DNA of 64,000 bases from a virus: positions 1-64,000 of the IMG/VR virus record IMGVR_UViG_3300020176_000010, one strand, 5' to 3'. This document shows, in pieces, positions 7,944 through 48,484 of the stretch (the stretch's first letter is position 1; every line of letters starts with the position of its first letter). The notes under the pieces are model-generated. The model had not been told where the DNA came from, ran no database searches, and worked only from the letters and a program-made list of their open reading frames with translations. Both the position numbers and the translations under genes were made by a program.

Positions 7944-10900
7944 ATGGCACAGCAAGACTTCTCCGACATCGCATCACTCATTCCCGATGCGCAGCCGAGC
8001 GCCGCAACGAAGCCCGCAGCACAACAGCAGGCATCCGAGTTTTCGGACATCTCCGCTCTGTTGCCAGATGCGGCCCCTGCGCAGTCCGGTGTTGATGGCT
8101 TCGTTGCCCAGTACCGACCACTTGCGGAGCGCGTTGCAAAGCAGGCCGGCGTGGCGCCCGAGGCGATTCTCGGCCAATGGGGTCTTGAGACTGGCTGGGG
8201 CAAGAGCGTAATCCCTGGCACAAACAACCTTGGGAACATCAAGGACTTCAGCGGCGGCGGCGTTCTGGCAACCGACAACATGACCGGCAGCCGAGATGCG
8301 TATCGCAAATACGGCTCTGCAGAGGACTTTGGAGATGATTTTGCAGGCCTGCTTGCTCGCCGCTACAAGTCCGCCATTGGGTCTGGCCAGAATGCGGAGC
8401 GCTACTTCACTGCGCTGAAGACGTCCGGCTATGCGGAGGATCCAGACTATGTGAAGAAGGGCGTCGCGGCGACACAGATGGCTGCCCGCGCCATGGGGTC
8501 AGCAGCGCCTGCGTCTTTACAGGCGAAGAGCGAGTACGGCTCCATCCAGCCGCAGCCCCCGCGGTCAACCTTCGATGCCATCAAGGACATGGGAAGCGCC
8601 TTGTGGCAAGGCGCCAAGTCGACCGCCAGATCTGTTGGCGCAACTGGCAGCGCATACATCGGCAATCTGTCGGATGTTGAGCTGGCAGCAGAGGCGCAGA
8701 AGTCGGATGTTGCGAACAATCCAGCGGCGCTTCAGTCGCTCCAGGGAGAGATCGCTCGCAGGAAGGCCGCAAACCCAAATGCAGGCATTCTAGATGCCGC
8801 CGCCGACGTCATTGGCGCCGCGCTGCAGAACAAAGAGGGCATGGCGCAGATGGTTGCAAACCAGGCGCCAAACTCTGCTGTGGCGCTCGGAGGAGCCTGG
8901 GCTGGCGGCAAGGCCGGCGCTGCCGTTGGATCTGCGTTTGGCCCAGCTGGCACGGTGGTTGGCGGCGTGCTCGGCGGGCTCGCCGGCATGTTCCTCGGCA
9001 ACGCGGCAATGGAGACCGGCGGCAAAGCCATTGAGAAGGCTGAAGGCGGGTTTACCCCACAGGAGCGAACAGAGGCCATCGAGGAGGGCGCCGTAAAGGC
9101 TGGCGTCATTACAGCCGTCGATGCCGCAACATTCAAGCTCGGCGGCGCCATTGCGAGCAGCCTGAACAAGGGGGCAATCCGCGCTGGCGCTCGAGCCGAG
9201 GCGAAGGTGCTTGCAGATGCTGGCATCAATATCGCTGACGGCGCAGAGATCGTTGCTGCGCTGGCAAAGAATCCAGCACTTCGCAAAACAGCCATCGAGG
9301 CAGGAGAGAAGGCTGCAAAGGCGGCAAGCTCCACGGCTTCAAGGATTGGCACGGCCGGCACGCTACTGACCACAGAAACGCTCGGCGAAGGTGTCGGCGA
9401 GTACGGCGGCGAGCTTGCCGCAACCGGTCAGGCTGACCCGTACGATGCAGCACTGGAGGCCATCTCCAGCTTCTCGCAAAGCGCACCGCAGGCCGCCATG
9501 TCCATGGTGCAGTCTGCAAGCAACAGGCTCGACACAAAGGCGATCGTTGCCGCGGCTCCAGAGATGGCACCAGTCATCGAGAAGGCCGCAACTCCAAACT
9601 CACCACTGTCGCGCGCCGCCATGGCTGCCAACACGCCAGAGGTGGTGGCGCAACGCCAGGCCGAGCGGTCCGCGCAAGCTGGCGCTTTGGGCGATGCGTC
9701 TGCAGCAGAAGCGGCTCCAGCGGCGGCGAAAGATGCTGGCGTTCGACTGGCAGAGCTCGAGGCTATCGCCAAGGGCACGCCGTCGCAACAGGTGACAGAC
9801 GAGTCCGGCAATCCGTTGACGATTCCAGGCGAGCCTGGCCGCTTCTTCACCCAGGAAGAAAAGGCGGAGTATGACCAGCTTGTGCAAATGCGCGACGCCA
9901 CCGAAAAGGTGCGCAACGCAGACAAGCCGCAGGTCGACGAGATCTCCACCCGCGTGGAAGAGATCTCTGCATCGATTCGCGAGAATGGCACACTGCAGGC
10001 CATGCGCGACGCAGGCGAGAACACCAACGCCCTGCTGAAAGACTTGGCCATCGCCAAGAGCAAGTCCACGGCCGCCGCGCAACGCGAGCAGGCCCTGGCG
10101 CGTGTCGAGTTTGCACTCGGCATGTCCGACCAGCTGATGCCAGCCCGCCAGCCGCGCGAGGCCGCAGACCCCATCCAGGCTCAGCTGAGCAACCCACAGA
10201 TTTCAGAGGTCGATCGCGAAGAGTTGAGCATCAACTACTTTGCGTCGAAGAATCAGGCCTTGCCAGAGAAGACGCGCCAGCGTGCACTCGAGCGCGCGCA
10301 GGAGATCGTTGGCCGCTATGCGGCGCCTTCGACGGGTCGCGCAGAGGGTGATCTATCGCCGGCCGTGCTTGCTGACATCGCTCCGCAGCCCGGCTCTCCA
10401 GAGGAGGCTCTGCGTCAGGCTGAGCGCTTCGACAGTGGCGCCTACCAGTTCAAGGCCGAAGGCTTCCCCGACGAGGCTGCAGAGCTCGAGCTGCAGGCTG
10501 ATGCTGCGCGCAAGGAGGCTGCAGTTCGCCGCGAAGCGATCGAGCTGGCAAACCGCGTTGAGCAGGTTCCAGCACCCGCCGTGGCCACGCCAGCCGGCCC
10601 GGGCCCTGCGGCGCTACGAAAGCGCAAGGCAACTCTGCGCCAGCTGGTCGACAATGGTCTCGGCCGCGTTGAGCGCCGCAACGATGGCTTCTTCCTGGTG
10701 AGCCAGAACGGACGCCAGGAGTTCAAGCTGGACGGCATGGCCGACGCGCAGCTGGCACGCACGGCGATCGCAGACTCCATCCGCGACGGCGCAGCCAAGG
10801 CCAACACCAACCCCACAGAAGGCCAAAAGCAGGCCGGCAACTACAAGGTCGGCGAGATCAAGTTCGATGGCCTGACGCTGGCCGTCGAGAACCCGCAGGG

Positions 10901-31403: not shown

Positions 31404-32096
31404 TTAGAACGACTTGCCGCCCTCTGTTGTGCGGTTCTCGATCTTGTGATCTGGCCGGTGAGCGTTGTAGCGAATCTTTTCTGCAATTGCGCCGCCGAGA
31501 TCCATTTCCAATCCGCCCGCCAGATCGCAAATGCGAATGACAGCATCTGCCAGCTCAACCTCCAGCATTGGGCGGTGCGGCAGCTTGTCGTCCATCAGGC
31601 CCTTGCGGTGGCCCTCCAGACCTTCGGAGACCTCGCTGTGCACCAGGGCCAGCTTGGTGCCAATCCACAGGCTGAGGAACTTCGTAGGCCACAGGCGCAC
31701 ATCCTCGCCGGTCTCTGTGTCTTTCCACCAGCCGGAGCTTGCTGCAGCGCCGTGGCACACGGCCACCAGCAGGTTGCCTGAGTTGGCCACATCGTCTGAC
31801 GATACATCGGCAGAGCCTTTGTTCTCTGTCACGGAGCCGAGCAACGAGAGCAGCATGTTGTAGGCGTACTGCATGTCCGTGGCGCGCTCGTCGTCATCGA
31901 ACTTGATGTCGCTCAACAGGTCCGCGGCGATGCCCAGGCGGTCGGCTGCAGGCGATTGATCCTTCACTGCGGTGACGTACGCCTTGACCAGCTCCTCTGC
32001 ATCGGTGATGTCGATGCTGGACTTGCGTGGGCTGAGAACGATGGAGGCAGCAACTGCGTGCTGCAAGGCGGTCTGGCTGATTGGTGCGTGGTTCAT
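31404..32096 (-). CDS. MazG-like NTP pyrophosphohydrolase
   Basis: 230 residues. The C-terminal half carries the all-alpha NTP-PPase signature: LALVHSEVSEGLEGHRKG, then LEVELADAVIRICDLAGG and KIRYNAHRPDHK. The Glu/Asp residues of the ExxE...ExxD pattern would hold Mg2+. The family cleaves NTPs to NMP and PPi, lowering (p)ppGpp or removing unwanted dNTPs. The N-terminal 90 residues are extra helical sequence. It is coupled to the neighbouring gene by a four-base overlap. Confidence 0.85.
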   Translation of the reverse strand: MNHAPISQTALQHAVAASIVLSPRKSSIDITDAEELVKAYVTAVKDQSPAADRLGIAADLLSDIKFDDDERATDMQYAYNMLLSLLGSVTENKGSADVSSDDVANSGNLLVAVCHGAAASSGWWKDTETGEDVRLWPTKFLSLWIGTKLALVHSEVSEGLEGHRKGLMDDKLPHRPMLEVELADAVIRICDLAGGLEMDLGGAIAEKIRYNAHRPDHKIENRTTEGGKSF

Positions 32097-34169: not shown

Positions 34170-35078
34170 CTATGCCAGCAGCAGGGCCGCCAGCGGTGAA
34201 GAAAGCTGCGCAGGGGCCGCAGCTGCAGCCTGACTCACAACAGCCCGCGGCTCAAGGTCCGTGGGCGCATCGGTCGACAGGATGTTTGAGTTCAGTCCGT
34301 CGCGACGGAATGGCTTGGACCAGAACTTAATGGCCTCCTCGACGCGCGCATTGAATGCCATGAGCTCCATCTCCATCTTCTCGATGAAGTTGTCGTCTCG
34401 GTACACCCGCTTGACCAGGAGCTCGTTGCGCACGTTCTTGAGCTGCGGCATCCAGATGATGTTGTCAACCCACTCCCACCCGCGGATCCACATTCCGCCC
34501 TGCACCTGGTGCTCGTACTCAGAAAGGTCGAGGCTCTGGACCATCTCGCGCAGCTTTGCCGTGCTGGACGGCGTCTTGATCTCGATGCCGCCGTTCTGGC
34601 CGCGCACCTTGCCATCAGTGCTGTAGCCGAACAGTCGATCTTCGGTGAGCGCGATACCGCTCTCCACAATCTCGACGTCGTACAGCTCCTCGTAGCGAGC
34701 GCGGGCCCACATCTCCTCCTCATTGCCGCGGCGCATAGCCTGCGTCTGGTAGGTATCGCCGTATGGTTTGCCGCTGATGCGCTCGAACGCGAGCTCGTCG
34801 CAGTAGGCGATCGACGCACTGCTTGGGCCGACTGTTGGCTTGCCAGCCAGCGCGTCCGCCACAGACTGAGCTTTGGGGTCAGCCTTGTAGCCGGCGATTG
34901 CGCGAGCCTCAGCCTTGTCCTTGCCAGCCAGGATGGCGTCGACATAGGCGCGCTGCTTATCGTCCAGCGTGGACACCGTGGAGATGGCGGTGCTGAACAT
35001 GCTCGCGGTAATCACACCGACGCGCGCCAAATGCCACTCTGGAGTCCCTTGTTCACACTCGATGATGTGGTAGCTCAT
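34170..35078 (-). CDS. YqaJ-family recombination exonuclease
   Basis: 302 residues. PD-(D/E)xK phage exonuclease signature: GTPEWHLARVGVITASMF, GNEEEMWARARYEEL, FGYSTDGKVRGQNGGIEIKTP with the catalytic D...ExK (quoted in parts), then YEHQVQGGMWI. It resects dsDNA 5'-3' so that the neighbouring RecT can anneal ssDNA. The ATGA overlap with recT shows co-translation. Confidence 0.93.
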   Translation of the reverse strand: MSYHIIECEQGTPEWHLARVGVITASMFSTAISTVSTLDDKQRAYVDAILAGKDKAEARAIAGYKADPKAQSVADALAGKPTVGPSSASIAYCDELAFERISGKPYGDTYQTQAMRRGNEEEMWARARYEELYDVEIVESGIALTEDRLFGYSTDGKVRGQNGGIEIKTPSSTAKLREMVQSLDLSEYEHQVQGGMWIRGWEWVDNIIWMPQLKNVRNELLVKRVYRDDNFIEKMEMELMAFNARVEEAIKFWSKPFRRDGLNSNILSTDAPTDLEPRAVVSQAAAAAPAQLSSPLAALLLA

Positions 35079-36004
35079 TTCGATGACCCTTCTGCATCAA
35101 TGACAATCCCAAGCTCCTGGCGGCGCTTCAGCACCGCCGCGCGGATGCGGTCGTACGCGCCCTTGTCGCGCGCCTCGCTTGCGGCTGTAAGGCCCTCCTT
35201 GCGGATGGCGTCGATCTCCTTGCCGCTCTCTGCGCCGTCGAGTCGAGCAAGAATGTTGCCGACATTGAATGCTGGCCGATCCGGCTCGATGACCTGCTCG
35301 GACGCGAAGTCGATACCCTCTCCGCCGTCGGTGTTGAGGTGGTGCACAGCCTTGTCCAGGCGCTCGGTCTTTGGCCACATCTTTGATGCGCGCTTCACCA
35401 GCGTCTTCTTCACCATCTCGCTGTAGTCCGTCACCCATGGGCATGGACGCTTCTTTGCGATCCAGGCCTGCCACGCATCAGACCGATCGCGGATGGCATT
35501 GACCTCGTCGATGGACATGGTGTCTGTGAGGTAGTCGCCGTCAGCGGTCTTTGCCACGCAGTACACGCCAACGATGTCGCCGCGATCTTTGGCGAACGGG
35601 TCGAACTCATGGACCGGCGGCTTGTCGACGCCCTTCAGAATCAGGCGGTCCGCCTGACGAACAACCTCGCACTTCACCCAGCGGATAGACCCGCTCTCGA
35701 CAGCCAGGTCGGCAAGCCCCATGTAGGAGATCACGAGCGTGATTCCACCCTTTCGCGGCACCAGGTAGGCTTGCTTCTTTGCAGGGTTCAGCGAGATACC
35801 GATGGCAGCGACATTAATCACCGCATCGCGCACCGACTGCGGGTTCTTCAGCGCGATCTGGCGCGCATAGTCGTTGCTGTAGATGGACTGCAGCGCAAAC
35901 TCCTGCTCGCGCGCAAACTCGATTGTCTTGTCGACGCGGACCCTTTCGAATACCGGCGCGGCAGAGTCGATGATCGACTCGATCGTCATTACTTCGTTGC
36001 TCAT
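35075..36004 (-). CDS. recT: RecT-family ssDNA-annealing protein
   Basis: 309 residues with the RecT core: SVRDAVINVAAIGISLNPAKKQAYL, ITLVISYMGLADLA, GDIVGVYCVAKTADG and PWVTDYSEMVKKTLVKRASKMWP (quoted in parts). It anneals complementary ssDNA during phage recombination and works with the YqaJ exonuclease directly downstream. Confidence 0.95.
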   Translation of the reverse strand: MSNEVMTIESIIDSAAPVFERVRVDKTIEFAREQEFALQSIYSNDYARQIALKNPQSVRDAVINVAAIGISLNPAKKQAYLVPRKGGITLVISYMGLADLAVESGSIRWVKCEVVRQADRLILKGVDKPPVHEFDPFAKDRGDIVGVYCVAKTADGDYLTDTMSIDEVNAIRDRSDAWQAWIAKKRPCPWVTDYSEMVKKTLVKRASKMWPKTERLDKAVHHLNTDGGEGIDFASEQVIEPDRPAFNVGNILARLDGAESGKEIDAIRKEGLTAASEARDKGAYDRIRAAVLKRRQELGIVIDAEGSSK

Positions 36005-37353: not shown

Positions 37354-38157
37354 TCACACAGCCACCGGCATGGGAACGAAATCCCGAGGCGTGTACCCGA
37401 CGATGCGGAAGTCGTCGATGGTGTACCCGTCGATGTCCGTGTTGTCCGTCAGGATCTCGAGCTGGGCTCTATCGCCCCACACGGGCCCGGCCTCCACAAC
37501 CTTGCGCATCTGCTCGACGTGGTTCAAGTAGATGTGCGCGTCGCCGTAGTTGAACACCAGGCGGCGCGGCTTTCGACCTGTGGCGCGAGCATAGAGATGT
37601 AGGAGTAGGGCGTACGCGCTTATGTTGAATGGAGCCCCAAGGGCGATGTCCCAGCTGCGCTGGTAGACCTGCATGTCGAGCCACTCGTCTCCGCCTGCGT
37701 AGCACTGGTGCCAGGCATGGCATGGGGGTAGGGCCATGTACGGAATCTCCGATACGTGCCACGCTGTTACGATGTGCCGCCTTCCATGCGGGTCTTTCTT
37801 GATGCCGTCGATCAGCCCGGCAACCTGATCAATCTCCTCTCCGCGCGGCCCGACAAAGCACCTCCAGACGGAGCCATAGACTGGCCCAAGGTCTCCACCC
37901 TTGTTGGCCCATGGAGTCCACAGCTTGCTTCCGCGATCCTCGAGCCACTTGACATTTGTCTGCCCAGCCAAGAAGAAAAGCATTTCAAGAAACGCTGTGC
38001 GCCACCGCGTCTCCTTTGCCGTCACCAGCGGGAAGCGATGGCGCAAATCCCACTCAATGCTGCCACCAAAGATGCTGAGCGTGCCGACGCCTGTGCGATC
38101 TTTCCGCTCCTCGCCGGTCATGAGGATATTCTGTGCGAGCTCAATGTAATTCTGCAT
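37354..38157 (-). CDS. thyA: Thymidylate synthase
   Basis: 267 residues from ATG 38157 (TTG 38166 is the earlier option). ThyA hallmarks: DRTGVGTLSIFGG, GDLGPVYGSVWR, the catalytic Cys in LPPCHAWHQCY, FNISAYALL with the dUMP-binding Asn, and GDAHIYLNH. It methylates dUMP to dTMP using methylene-THF and yields dihydrofolate, which the DfrB-like domain at 42.4 kb could recycle. Retention of that Asn argues against a dCMP-type hydroxymethylase. Confidence 0.95.
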   Translation of the reverse strand: MQNYIELAQNILMTGEERKDRTGVGTLSIFGGSIEWDLRHRFPLVTAKETRWRTAFLEMLFFLAGQTNVKWLEDRGSKLWTPWANKGGDLGPVYGSVWRCFVGPRGEEIDQVAGLIDGIKKDPHGRRHIVTAWHVSEIPYMALPPCHAWHQCYAGGDEWLDMQVYQRSWDIALGAPFNISAYALLLHLYARATGRKPRRLVFNYGDAHIYLNHVEQMRKVVEAGPVWGDRAQLEILTDNTDIDGYTIDDFRIVGYTPRDFVPMPVAV

Positions 38158-38195
38158 ATCGTCCAATCAGCTGTTGTTGCAATAAATTCTATTCG

Positions 38196-40775: not shown

Positions 40776-41281
40776 GGTGTGTCTCCTGTGTGTAAAGGAG
40801 AGTATGGAGAGTATTCACCTTTTATCCTTATGGATGCCTCCCTGTAGCGCTCCCACGCGGCTTCCGGTGTTTTGAACGTTCCCAAGTGAATCACCTTTCT
40901 GCAGTGACTAATAGTGGCTTTGTATTTGCCATTAGCCAACCTAGAAACTCCGCGAAAACCACTTTGGCTTTTTGTCTTCACAATGTTTGCACTGTTCTGG
41001 CTGCAATTTGAAGGCCTCAAGTTGCAAATGCGGTTATCCAGCCTGTTTCTATTTATGTGGTCTAAAAACATGGGTGGCTTCTCCCCATAAAAAATCATCC
41101 ACGCGACACGATGTACTAAATAGGTTTTCCCATGGCATATGACCTTTCTGTATCCGTGTCGATCGAAGCTGCCAGCGACTATTCCCTTTTTGTTGTGGCC
41201 TCGCTGAATACGCCATCTAAGCTCGCCACTTTCAGGGTCGTAAACAAAGCAGGAGCGCAAGAGTTCAATCTCGTCCGTCAT
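40772..41281 (-). CDS. HNH-AP2 homing endonuclease
   Basis: 169 residues from ATG 41281. HNH core: [34 protein letters not shown], quoted in parts; AP2 DNA-binding domain: [31 protein letters not shown]. It is the intact form of the architecture found as a remnant at 25937-26155. ATGA overlaps both neighbours, so it sits in the operon without breaking it. Confidence 0.88.
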
Positions 41282-42654
41282 ATTCCTCCCTGTGCGGCTA
41301 GAGCTGCGTCGATGGCAGCATCCCATTCGCACCCGCACAAATTCACAGCAACGTACCATGCTGCGCCGTGTTTTGCGTCATTACCTTCGCGCAGCCACCG
41401 ATACCGCGCAGCATCCTTCGCGTCATCACTCAGCGGCTCAGGCGCTCGCTGGGGTGCTGCTTGTTGTTTACCGATGGCTTCAGCGGCCATAACCGCAGCT
41501 TTGATCGTTGCGTTTACACAGATCAAGTCGTGAAAACGCTGAATTGCTGCGTGTAGGTCTCCGACCCTGCTAGCAGGGCCAATGAGACCAACGCTTTCCG
41601 CAAGCTCCATCGTCTTTTTGACAACGGTAGTAGGCTCCTGCGCCTCCTGCTGGGGTGCTGCCTCAGCTTCCATCAAAGCCCTTTTGAGCAGCGCAATCTC
41701 TGCCTCGCGGGATGCCAAAACACCACGCACAGAAAGCAGCATTGCGCTCAGGGATGCCTTTTCATCGTGTGCCCAACGAGCGGCTTGAACAAACTTGCGC
41801 ACAGCCTCACCGCTGACAGTCTTGCCACTCAAAAAGTCTGCGGCAGTCTTGTGGTCAAAGCCGCTATTCCCCACCCCTGGCGCTGCCTCGGGTGCGGCTT
41901 GCTGCTCTGCTTGTGTGTGTAATGCTGCACAAAGCTGCATACCGTTCACCGCCTCAATTGCGGCAGCCCACACGGTTCGAGGATCGGGGTTCCCCTTGTA
42001 CGGGCACCAATCGTCAAACATTTGCTGTTCTTCAAGTGGCGAGATAGTCAACGGCTCCCCTGGCGCTGCCTTGGGGGCGGCTTGCTCCATGCGCAGTGCA
42101 TGGGTGCGGTCTGTGAAGTTGCGGGCTTGTTCGGTGGTGTAAAGCGTGCGCTTTGGGTGCATCGACGCATGGAATGACTGGTGCGATGGCTCCACCCGCC
42201 ACCCAACGATTGCGTCTCCGTGTTCGCATGCTTTGAGCTCCGCAATCTGGTGGGTAGTTGGCTCAGGCAGCTCCGCATAAACCGCGCCGGATTCGGATGT
42301 GATAGCTGACTTCTCTGCCTGCGCCACCTCGACAAGCTCCAGCGCTGCGGCCGGGTATATCTGAACGGAGCCGCGCTCCGTGTTGCTCTCCACTGCATAA
42401 CCTTCAGGTGCGAGGGCGGTGGAGTACGTGCCAACGACGCGCCCTGTCCACTGGCTGCCCTTGACCTTGGTGACCAGGACGCCAACTTTGAACTTGGCTG
42501 CTGGCGCTGCGCTGAGCGCATGCACACCGCTCAATGCCTTGATCACTGCCTTGCGCGCCGCCTCGGTCTTGGCGTTGTAGGTCGCGCATCCGCAGCGGTG
42601 CCGCGTCTCTGCGTATTCGTCGATCAGCTCGATCAGCGTCTTGGTGTTGCTCAT
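41278..42654 (-). CDS. Ead-like protein with R67/DfrB-type dihydrofolate reductase domain
   Basis: 458 residues. Residues about 55-109 match type II (R67, DfrB) dihydrofolate reductase: [23 protein letters not shown], then [12 protein letters not shown]. By memory of R67 about 31 of 55 positions are identical, including Lys32 (here K63), Trp38 (W69) and the active-site Val-Gln-Ile-Tyr (97-100). DfrB works as a homotetramer reducing dihydrofolate with NADPH and is not inhibited by trimethoprim. The remaining 350 residues are a patchwork helical accessory protein. With thyA 4 kb away, a folate-recycling role is likely. Confidence 0.8.
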
Positions 42655-42932
42655 TGCAAGCCGCCTTCCGTATCGTCCGCCGGAAGGCGCTTCACTGAAA
42701 TCGCGCCACCAAGCTCCTCGGCCGGTATGAACTCACCGGACTCGAGGGCGACCCCGGGGCGAAACGCAGGCGCCTTAGCGCCAACGCGCTCGAGTGATTC
42801 GATAGCCGGTCCAAGCAGGCCCTCCGCAATGCGTTTGGCGCTTGCTGTGTCGCGCACCTGTCCGCCGATCATTTGCGCATACAGGTGCCGCAGGTTTGCG
42901 ACAGCTGCGCTGCTTGTTGTGGCATTAGCCAT
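42651..42932 (-). CDS. Unrecognised small protein
   Basis: 93 residues. The N-terminal half is helical ([21 protein letters not shown], quoted in part) and the rest Pro/Gly-rich with short strands. ATGA overlap with the DfrB-domain gene. Function unknown. Confidence 0.55.
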
Positions 42933-47452: not shown

Positions 47453-48484
47453 ATGAGTGCTACAGAAAAGATATCTGCCGGCGCAGATCCCGCAAGCGCT
47501 GGCGGCGAAATACACCAGGATGGCGGCCCGCCGGGCTCGGGTGGATGGAGGGCTCACGCTGAGAACATGGAGCGCGAGCGCGACCACTGGCGCGAGCGTG
47601 CCCGGACCATGGAAGATCACCAGCGCTGCACGGTCTGGTACTGGCAGGGCGATGGCAACGACCACCCTGAATCGATGGTGAACAGCTTGCCAGTGGTCAT
47701 CCGCGCAGACCAGCTGCGGGCGCTCATCGCTGGCGGGGTGCAGTCGCTTTCACAGAAAAAAGCTACGCCGGCAAGCGTGGATAAAGCGCAGGCAGCTATC
47801 AATTCAGGAGCGGCGGCGGGGCCGAGCTGGTGGAGCAAGCGCGCCGACGAGATCGAGGGTCAGGTGGCGCTCACGGGCAGCCCGGAGGCCATGCGCTGCT
47901 ACACCGACATGCGGACATTGCTGCAGGCTGCGGCTGGGGCAGCACCCCAGCAGGAGGCGCAGGAGCCGGGAGAAATTCCCGAATCAATCGAGCGCATGGC
48001 TACCGGCAGATACAAAGTGGTGCCTTCACATGAAAGCATGTTCCATCGATGGGCTGTTGTCGCAGGCTCTGGAACGCAGCAGCTCTATCTAGGGCGCGAA
48101 GTTGAATGCCAAAACATGGCGCGCAAGTTTGCTGGCGCATTTCTCGACGGCGCATTTTTTGCCATGCAGCAGCCAGCACCCCAGCAGGAGGCGCGGGAGC
48201 CTGTGGCATTCAGGTGCTTGCATGAATGGGATGGACTGATCCGAACATCCATGCCTCCAAAATATGCGTGCAAGCACTGCCACAACTTCTTCGATGCGCC
48301 GCCCTCACCCGCACTCCAGCCAGCGCCTGCGCCGCTGAGTGATGACGTTTTCCAAAAAACATGGAGGCTGCTCGACGAGCTGGAAAAGCTGCGCAGCGCA
48401 AACCGTGACGAGGAAGACTGGGGTGCGCTCAACAGGCGCGATAGCGAACTGCGCGCAGCGCTGGCAGAACGGGAGGGCGCATGA
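47453..48484 (+). CDS. Ead-like accessory protein (rightward operon)
   Basis: 343 residues in mosaic segments separated by Gln/Ala/Pro linkers ([10 protein letters not shown] occurs here and in the 458-residue protein at 41278). It contains a Cys pair CKHCHNFFDAP, and its C-terminus is coiled coil. The shared linkers suggest recombination between the accessory genes of the two operons. No DfrB-like segment is present in this one. Confidence 0.55.
   Translation: MSATEKISAGADPASAGGEIHQDGGPPGSGGWRAHAENMERERDHWRERARTMEDHQRCTVWYWQGDGNDHPESMVNSLPVVIRADQLRALIAGGVQSLSQKKATPASVDKAQAAINSGAAAGPSWWSKRADEIEGQVALTGSPEAMRCYTDMRTLLQAAAGAAPQQEAQEPGEIPESIERMATGRYKVVPSHESMFHRWAVVAGSGTQQLYLGREVECQNMARKFAGAFLDGAFFAMQQPAPQQEAREPVAFRCLHEWDGLIRTSMPPKYACKHCHNFFDAPPSPALQPAPAPLSDDVFQKTWRLLDELEKLRSANRDEEDWGALNRRDSELRAALAEREGA

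Follow-up and report, generated by a model that had tools for sequence, protein, structure and literature searches.

A DfrB-type dihydrofolate reductase domain within a phage mosaic protein, and its many relatives among viruses

Enzymes of the DfrB family confer trimethoprim resistance, and both their original function and their source are stated as open questions in the literature (PMC9835603, PMC11662351). When a domain of this family turns up inside a phage accessory protein, two questions follow: what does it do for the phage, and are phages where the resistance genes came from? The locus considered here lies in a window of 64,000 nucleotides, the whole stretch of DNA that was analysed, which comprises positions 1 to 64,000 of the IMG/VR virus record IMGVR_UViG_3300020176_000010. 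The complete record has 81,140 bases, and family searches also covered the 17 kb that lie outside the window.

The domain occupies positions 42328-42492 on the minus strand and corresponds to residues 55-109 of a 458-residue protein. A sequence-only reading had given it about 31 of 55 ungapped identities to R67 dihydrofolate reductase, and this figure proved exact when the domain was compared with DfrB1 (L012); the runner-up among 46,490 stop-free 55-residue windows from the six reading frames has 14 identities to DfrB1. The domain is a member of Pfam family PF06442 (DHFR_2; E 1.8e-18, 66.6 bits, cut-off 25), and it matches phrog_31682 (E 2.2e-18) and the R67 chains in the PDB (E 1.4e-14). Against the NCBIfam model trim_DfrB (NF000331) it scores 74 bits, which falls short of the "exception" cut-off of 137 that NCBI sets for giving the name DfrB; nor does it qualify as a dfrB resistance gene in the sense of a free 78-residue protein scoring above 137 bits, being part of a 458-residue protein. 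An AlphaFold2 model of the domain, built from 47 sequences of the window and the compared loci, has a pLDDT of 89.8, and the only significant matches in a Foldseek search with this model are seven R67 entries (rmsd 1.0-1.2 Å, TM 0.85-0.88). For the single chain, an R67-type SH3-like barrel is predicted rather than solved.

Conservation of individual residues supports the claim that this is a DfrB-type domain within a phage accessory protein, in that ligand and interface residues are kept: Lys32, Trp38, and the Val-Gln-Ile-Tyr strand are all present, as the sequence-only reading had it. Among the domains compared, the invariant positions are Trp38, Gly40, Gly44, Tyr46, Thr48, Gly54, and Val-Gln-Ile-Tyr-Pro, and Lys32 is found in 144 of 145, with Arg in the remaining one. 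Lys32 and Trp38 lie outside both sequence patterns used in the searches, so their conservation is unbiased by the way in which the sequences were selected. Val-Gln-Ile-Tyr is inside one of the two patterns, but it is likewise present in the four loci that this pattern missed and the other recovered, as well as in tblastn seeds (identities as low as 47%) for which no pattern was used. The window domain departs from R67 by the substitutions Trp45Thr, Thr51Ala, His62Glu, and Asp28Val (R67 numbering). Threonine in place of Trp45 is shared with 73 of 80 viral loci, and Trp45 of DfrB1 can be replaced without loss (PMC9835603). Ala51 is unique to the window domain (the other 145 of 145 domains compared have Thr51) and Val at position 28 is rare; these two substitutions lower the expectation of activity without removing it. 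The literature searched yielded no role for Thr51. Between the window domain and its counterpart in L016, dN/dS is 0.11.

The protein around the domain is encoded by a 458-codon open reading frame at 41278-42654 on the minus strand, with an ATG start that overlaps the stop codon of the preceding gene (ATGA). Outside the DfrB domain it has no Pfam family match, and its similarity to other viral proteins is piecemeal, each of them sharing just one or two segments of about 40-90 residues. The N-terminal helical module (residues 1-50; 42505-42654, minus strand, as are all modules that follow) is also present in L146, where residues 7-66 have a 64% match that is not followed by DfrB. A module at residues ~192-277 (41824-42081) recurs in proteins of L150-L153, with residues 192-277 matching L150 and residues 202-262 matching L151-L153; another, at residues 256-337 (41644-41889), is 80% identical in L146; and a third, at residues ~326-407 (41434-41679), recurs in proteins of L147-L149. 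At the place of DfrB, L146 has a different module, which resembles residues 5-48 of the product of the window's next gene upstream (42651-42932, minus strand; 61% over 44 residues). The joints between modules are rich in Ala, Pro, and Gln (for example, one stretch of 20 residues), and a full-length model, in which these joints have low confidence, shows helical segments on both sides of the barrel (pLDDT 62, pTM 0.25). Because separate modules match different viral proteins, and because of the linker-like joints and the model, we conclude that this is a phage mosaic accessory protein of shuffled modules, built like beads on a string, in which DfrB is one interchangeable bead. With its DfrB domain flanked by unrelated domains in one open reading frame, it belongs among the proteins designated DfrB-H (PMC9835603). 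A second linker-rich protein of similar mosaic style (343 amino acids, no Pfam match) is encoded elsewhere in the window, at 47453-48484 on the plus strand.

Tail and virion genes of the record are on the plus strand, and the mosaic gene is part of a minus-strand block that also includes genes for a MazG-like NTP pyrophosphatase (31404-32096), a YqaJ-type exonuclease and a RecT annealase (34170-36004), thymidylate synthase (thyA; 37354-38166, PF00303, E 3.4e-88), and an HNH endonuclease. Its gene content suggests that the block is expressed early. Searches of the whole record, including those with PF01227, PF01242, and PF06508, found no tyrosine integrase, FolA, GTP cyclohydrolase, QueD, or QueC, and the 16 kb around the mosaic gene had no megablast match in 50,697 phage records.

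The presence of thyA had suggested that the domain recycles the by-product of thymidylate synthase. The gene is indeed close, 3.1 kb downstream from the mosaic open reading frame and 4.2 kb from the DfrB domain on the same strand, but the argument is weakened by the survey, in which ThyA was not enriched with DfrB: among 50 DfrB records with a length of 20 kb or more it occurred in five (two by weak matches), versus three of 41 viral contigs drawn by random 14-mer (Fisher p 0.73). The thyA gene of the window thus fits the proposed role without being general evidence for it. ThyX was found in 3/50 DfrB records and a FolA-type dihydrofolate reductase in 0/51 DfrB viral records, and co-occurrence with thyA, thyX, or FolA was accordingly rejected as proof of a role in folate metabolism, although the absence of FolA counts in favor of the explanation that we prefer below. 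In L053 and L054, DfrB has a weak ThyA-family match (~48 bits) at a distance of about 10 kb; these are possibly dNMP hydroxymethylases.

A search for DfrB among phages, as the sequence-only reading had proposed, brought many to light. Using tblastn, we recovered 26 phage records, several of them annotated as dihydrofolate reductase, and 98 plasmids; a pattern scan of IMG/VR found at least 267 stretches that encode DfrB, of which 80 were used for the viral comparisons, and a pattern scan of genomes gave 50 loci. Together with eight annotated phages, the 80 viral contigs form 32 groups at the nucleotide level. Most of the 80 copies are free genes of 60-70 amino acids with a few residues ahead of the barrel; the smaller remainder form part of longer open reading frames, either terminally or internally. 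Purifying selection is evident in both settings, with dN/dS at 0.03 for the most populous group of free copies and 0.18 for one group of embedded ones. The survey shows that the DfrB fold is widespread and mobile among phages. DfrB and a MazG-like pyrophosphatase make up a single in-frame fusion in L022 (5413-6060) and L045 (4105-4788), and in L017 and L034 a gene of this family, which is also represented in the minus-strand block of the window, lies directly downstream. In L009 and other Rhizobium Schitoviridae (N4-like), DfrB is the immediate neighbor of the gene for the giant virion RNA polymerase, and the two lie on opposite strands.

Set beside the observed sequence identity, kept ligand residues, purifying selection, and modular shuffling, and the fold as predicted, the explanation that we find reasonably probable, if far from assured, is by analogy with R67 that the domain acts as a tetrameric NADPH-dependent dihydrofolate or dihydropterin reductase module within the phage mosaic protein. 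A complete DfrB domain would have been inserted as one bead and would fold as the predicted SH3-like barrel; four copies would assemble around a pore, as R67 and its tested relatives lead one to expect; the surface formed by Lys32 and Val-Gln-Ile-Tyr would bind NADPH and a 7,8-dihydropterin; and a hydride would be passed to yield the tetrahydro form. The most likely benefit to the phage would be an added capacity to reduce dihydrofolate, or a dihydropterin related to it, during nucleotide supply for phage DNA, and it would have no connection to trimethoprim. Points in favor are the company of ThyA, the MazG-like pyrophosphatase, RecT, and the exonuclease in the block, the MazG-like fusions, and the activity of the embedded relatives DfrB-H4, DfrB-H5, and DfrB-H6 (PMC9835603). 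Counting against it are Thr51Ala and Asp28Val, the lack of resistance from DfrB-H3, the low-confidence full-length model, and the lack of ThyA enrichment. The host presumably has a FolA of its own, which weighs on the same side.

A possible, though clearly less probable, alternative is that the barrel persists because it lets the mosaic protein tetramerise or bind a partner, with catalysis incidental or lost. This would suit a domain that is one of several interchangeable modules and has another in its place in L146, and it would suit the unusual Thr51Ala and Asp28Val; further, Lemay-St-Denis et al. suggest that activity was adventitious in ancestral DfrB domains (PMC9835603). However, the ligand residues Lys32, Gln67, Ile68, and Tyr69 are as conserved as the interface residue Trp38, while Trp45, also at the interface, varies, and most phage copies, as short free genes, have nothing to scaffold.

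Gene neighborhoods bear on a further reading, in which phage DfrB serves pterin or 7-deazaguanine metabolism, for example by re-reducing oxidised 6-carboxy-7,8-dihydropterin for QueE, and not dihydrofolate for ThyA. In an unbiased scan of PHROG families (94 families among 144 neighbors on 13 representative contigs), the most frequent were QueD (five), GTP cyclohydrolase (three), and QueE (three). GTP cyclohydrolase was present in 28/51 DfrB records versus 2/41 random contigs, as was PTPS/QueD (28/51 versus 2/41), and when GTP cyclohydrolase was hand-counted by phage group the contrast was 6/19 versus 2/41 (p 0.01). Depending on the subclade, DfrB immediately follows either folE or queD, or else precedes queE, and free DfrB genes lie within folE-queD-queE clusters of freshwater phages (L019, L035, L041, L043, L047, L060, and relatives). 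Yet in the reciprocal control DfrB accompanied only one of the 80 nearest relatives of the L043 queD, and 13 of 57 relatives of the L019 queD with longer flanks. Most such clusters are without DfrB, so the comparison with random contigs overstates the link, and DfrB is an optional rather than obligatory partner, perhaps carried along as a passenger by a freshwater lineage that is abundant. Looking in the DfrB records for the rest of a 7-deazaguanine DNA pathway gave an essentially negative result, with QueC in 1/51 and TGT in 0/51 (PF01702 may miss DpdA). Given these counts, and the lack of PF01227, PF01242, and PF06508 matches in the record of the window, we consider the pterin/7-deazaguanine role quite unlikely. 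The open-access literature searched contained no paper tying DfrB to the folE-queD-queE cluster.

The second question concerns the source of the clinical genes. We built a tree of 112 DfrB domains over 52 columns, in which many of the deeper forks are weak. DfrB1 and DfrB10-like proteins share a clade (support 99/92) with chromosomal copies from Burkholderiales and no phage member, and the window domain falls outside this clade, among phage copies, with L016 nearest. With the Burkholderiales chromosomal copies of their clade, DfrB1 and DfrB10 have 92%-100% identity. Their best match among the 80 phage copies does not exceed 77%, whereas a copy from Burkholderiales or related proteobacteria reaches 94%-100%, and this affinity of the clinical genes agrees with an earlier report (PMC11662351). 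A clinical clade without phages argues against a phage having been the direct source of these genes. The most frequent Pfam families among 144 neighbors of Burkholderiales dfrB include GNAT, GFA, LysR, and TctC; because no phage family is among the 25 most frequent, it is not evident that these are prophage genes. In L117, L123, and L132, chromosomal dfrB of Burkholderiales is preceded at ~115 nt by an attC-like hairpin, with none just downstream, which may mark these genes as former integron cassettes of some age. A Polynucleobacter MAG (L097) has two DfrB genes about 1 kb apart, at 8425-8748 (minus) and 9812-10165 (plus), from different parts of the tree.

One integron tells a different story from that of the clinical clade. 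A class 1 integron DfrB (L010/L011; p1160-VIM and pTmex-577K) groups with phage copies L067 and L079 and a Burkholderiales MAG (support 95/80). This open reading frame (L010 5974-6177; WP_257792703) is 81% identical to phage copies, lies antiparallel to aadA1 in a clinical integron, and is outside the clinical clade, and the grouping may reflect a separate capture from that part of the tree in which phages predominate. The proposal that a phage pool is the natural source of DfrB genes therefore holds in part: DfrB is more diverse in phages, whose copies are joined in the tree by one integron cassette, but clinical DfrB1 and DfrB10 belong to the Burkholderiales clade. That the phage domain is itself a trimethoprim-resistance gene or the direct ancestor of one, carried because of the drug, is highly improbable, since, although the family confers resistance and this one cassette groups with phage copies, the clinical clade excludes them, and phage copies are diverse and sit in metabolic or replication blocks rather than resistance contexts.

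A broader proposal is that the native job of DfrB is NADPH-dependent dihydropterin reduction in phage nucleobase or folate metabolism, to which optional membership in folE-queD-queE clusters, fusion or adjacency to MazG-like proteins, and module shuffling would all relate, and that integrons drew from a phage-dominated pool at least once; we hold this whole to be unlikely. What matters more generally is that phages hold a large, diverse, and mostly free-standing DfrB pool, whereas clinical DfrB1 and DfrB10 represent a different, Burkholderiales branch. The lead on native function comes from the pterin neighborhood and the MazG-like fusions; the window protein by itself adds little, and the survey around it carries the weight.

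DfrB domains inside longer proteins were described by Lemay-St-Denis et al. (2023), two of them from phages (DfrB-H3 and DfrB-H4). Trimethoprim resistance was obtained with DfrB-H4 (from a Vibrio phage), DfrB-H5, and DfrB-H6, while DfrB-H3 gave none for want of soluble expression (PMC9835603). Phage-encoded DfrB has been reported elsewhere, as dfrB2-like ORFs in freshwater viromes in 2020 (PMC7265639) and as eight dfrB genes in lytic phages in 2025 (PMC12466917); in the consulted portions of these two papers the genes are presented as resistance-gene homologues, and those portions hold no analysis of modular architecture or neighborhood. The embedding of DfrB in phage proteins is thus already published, and the window protein adds one more member. 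We take DfrB-H4 to be gene 25 of Vibrio phage 1.030.O (L003) and DfrB-H3 to be gene 5 of Pseudomonas phage PS-1 (L008). Like these, the window protein has an SH3-like domain in a longer phage protein, with Lys32, Trp38, and Val-Gln-Ile-Tyr kept and Trp45 replaced; its domain is 69% identical to that of L003, with which it shares Glu62, and 63% identical to that of L008. In contrast, the domains of DfrB-H4 and DfrB-H3 are in the C-terminal half of proteins of 218 and 167 amino acids, with no flanks in common with the window protein, whose domain is near the front of a linker-rich mosaic of 458 residues. DfrB-H5 of Methylobacterium resembles it in having an internal domain (residues 219-276 of 365), and was shown to form tetramers and to reduce dihydrofolate with kinetics like those of DfrB1, but it is from a bacterial host record and its flanking domains are unrelated (PMC9835603). 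Finally, DfrB1/R67 (PF06442, PDB 1VIE) shares the predicted fold at an rmsd of 1.0 Å, 31 of 55 residues, and the ligand residues, and differs in being a free 78-residue protein of resistance integrons that has Trp45, His62, and Thr51.
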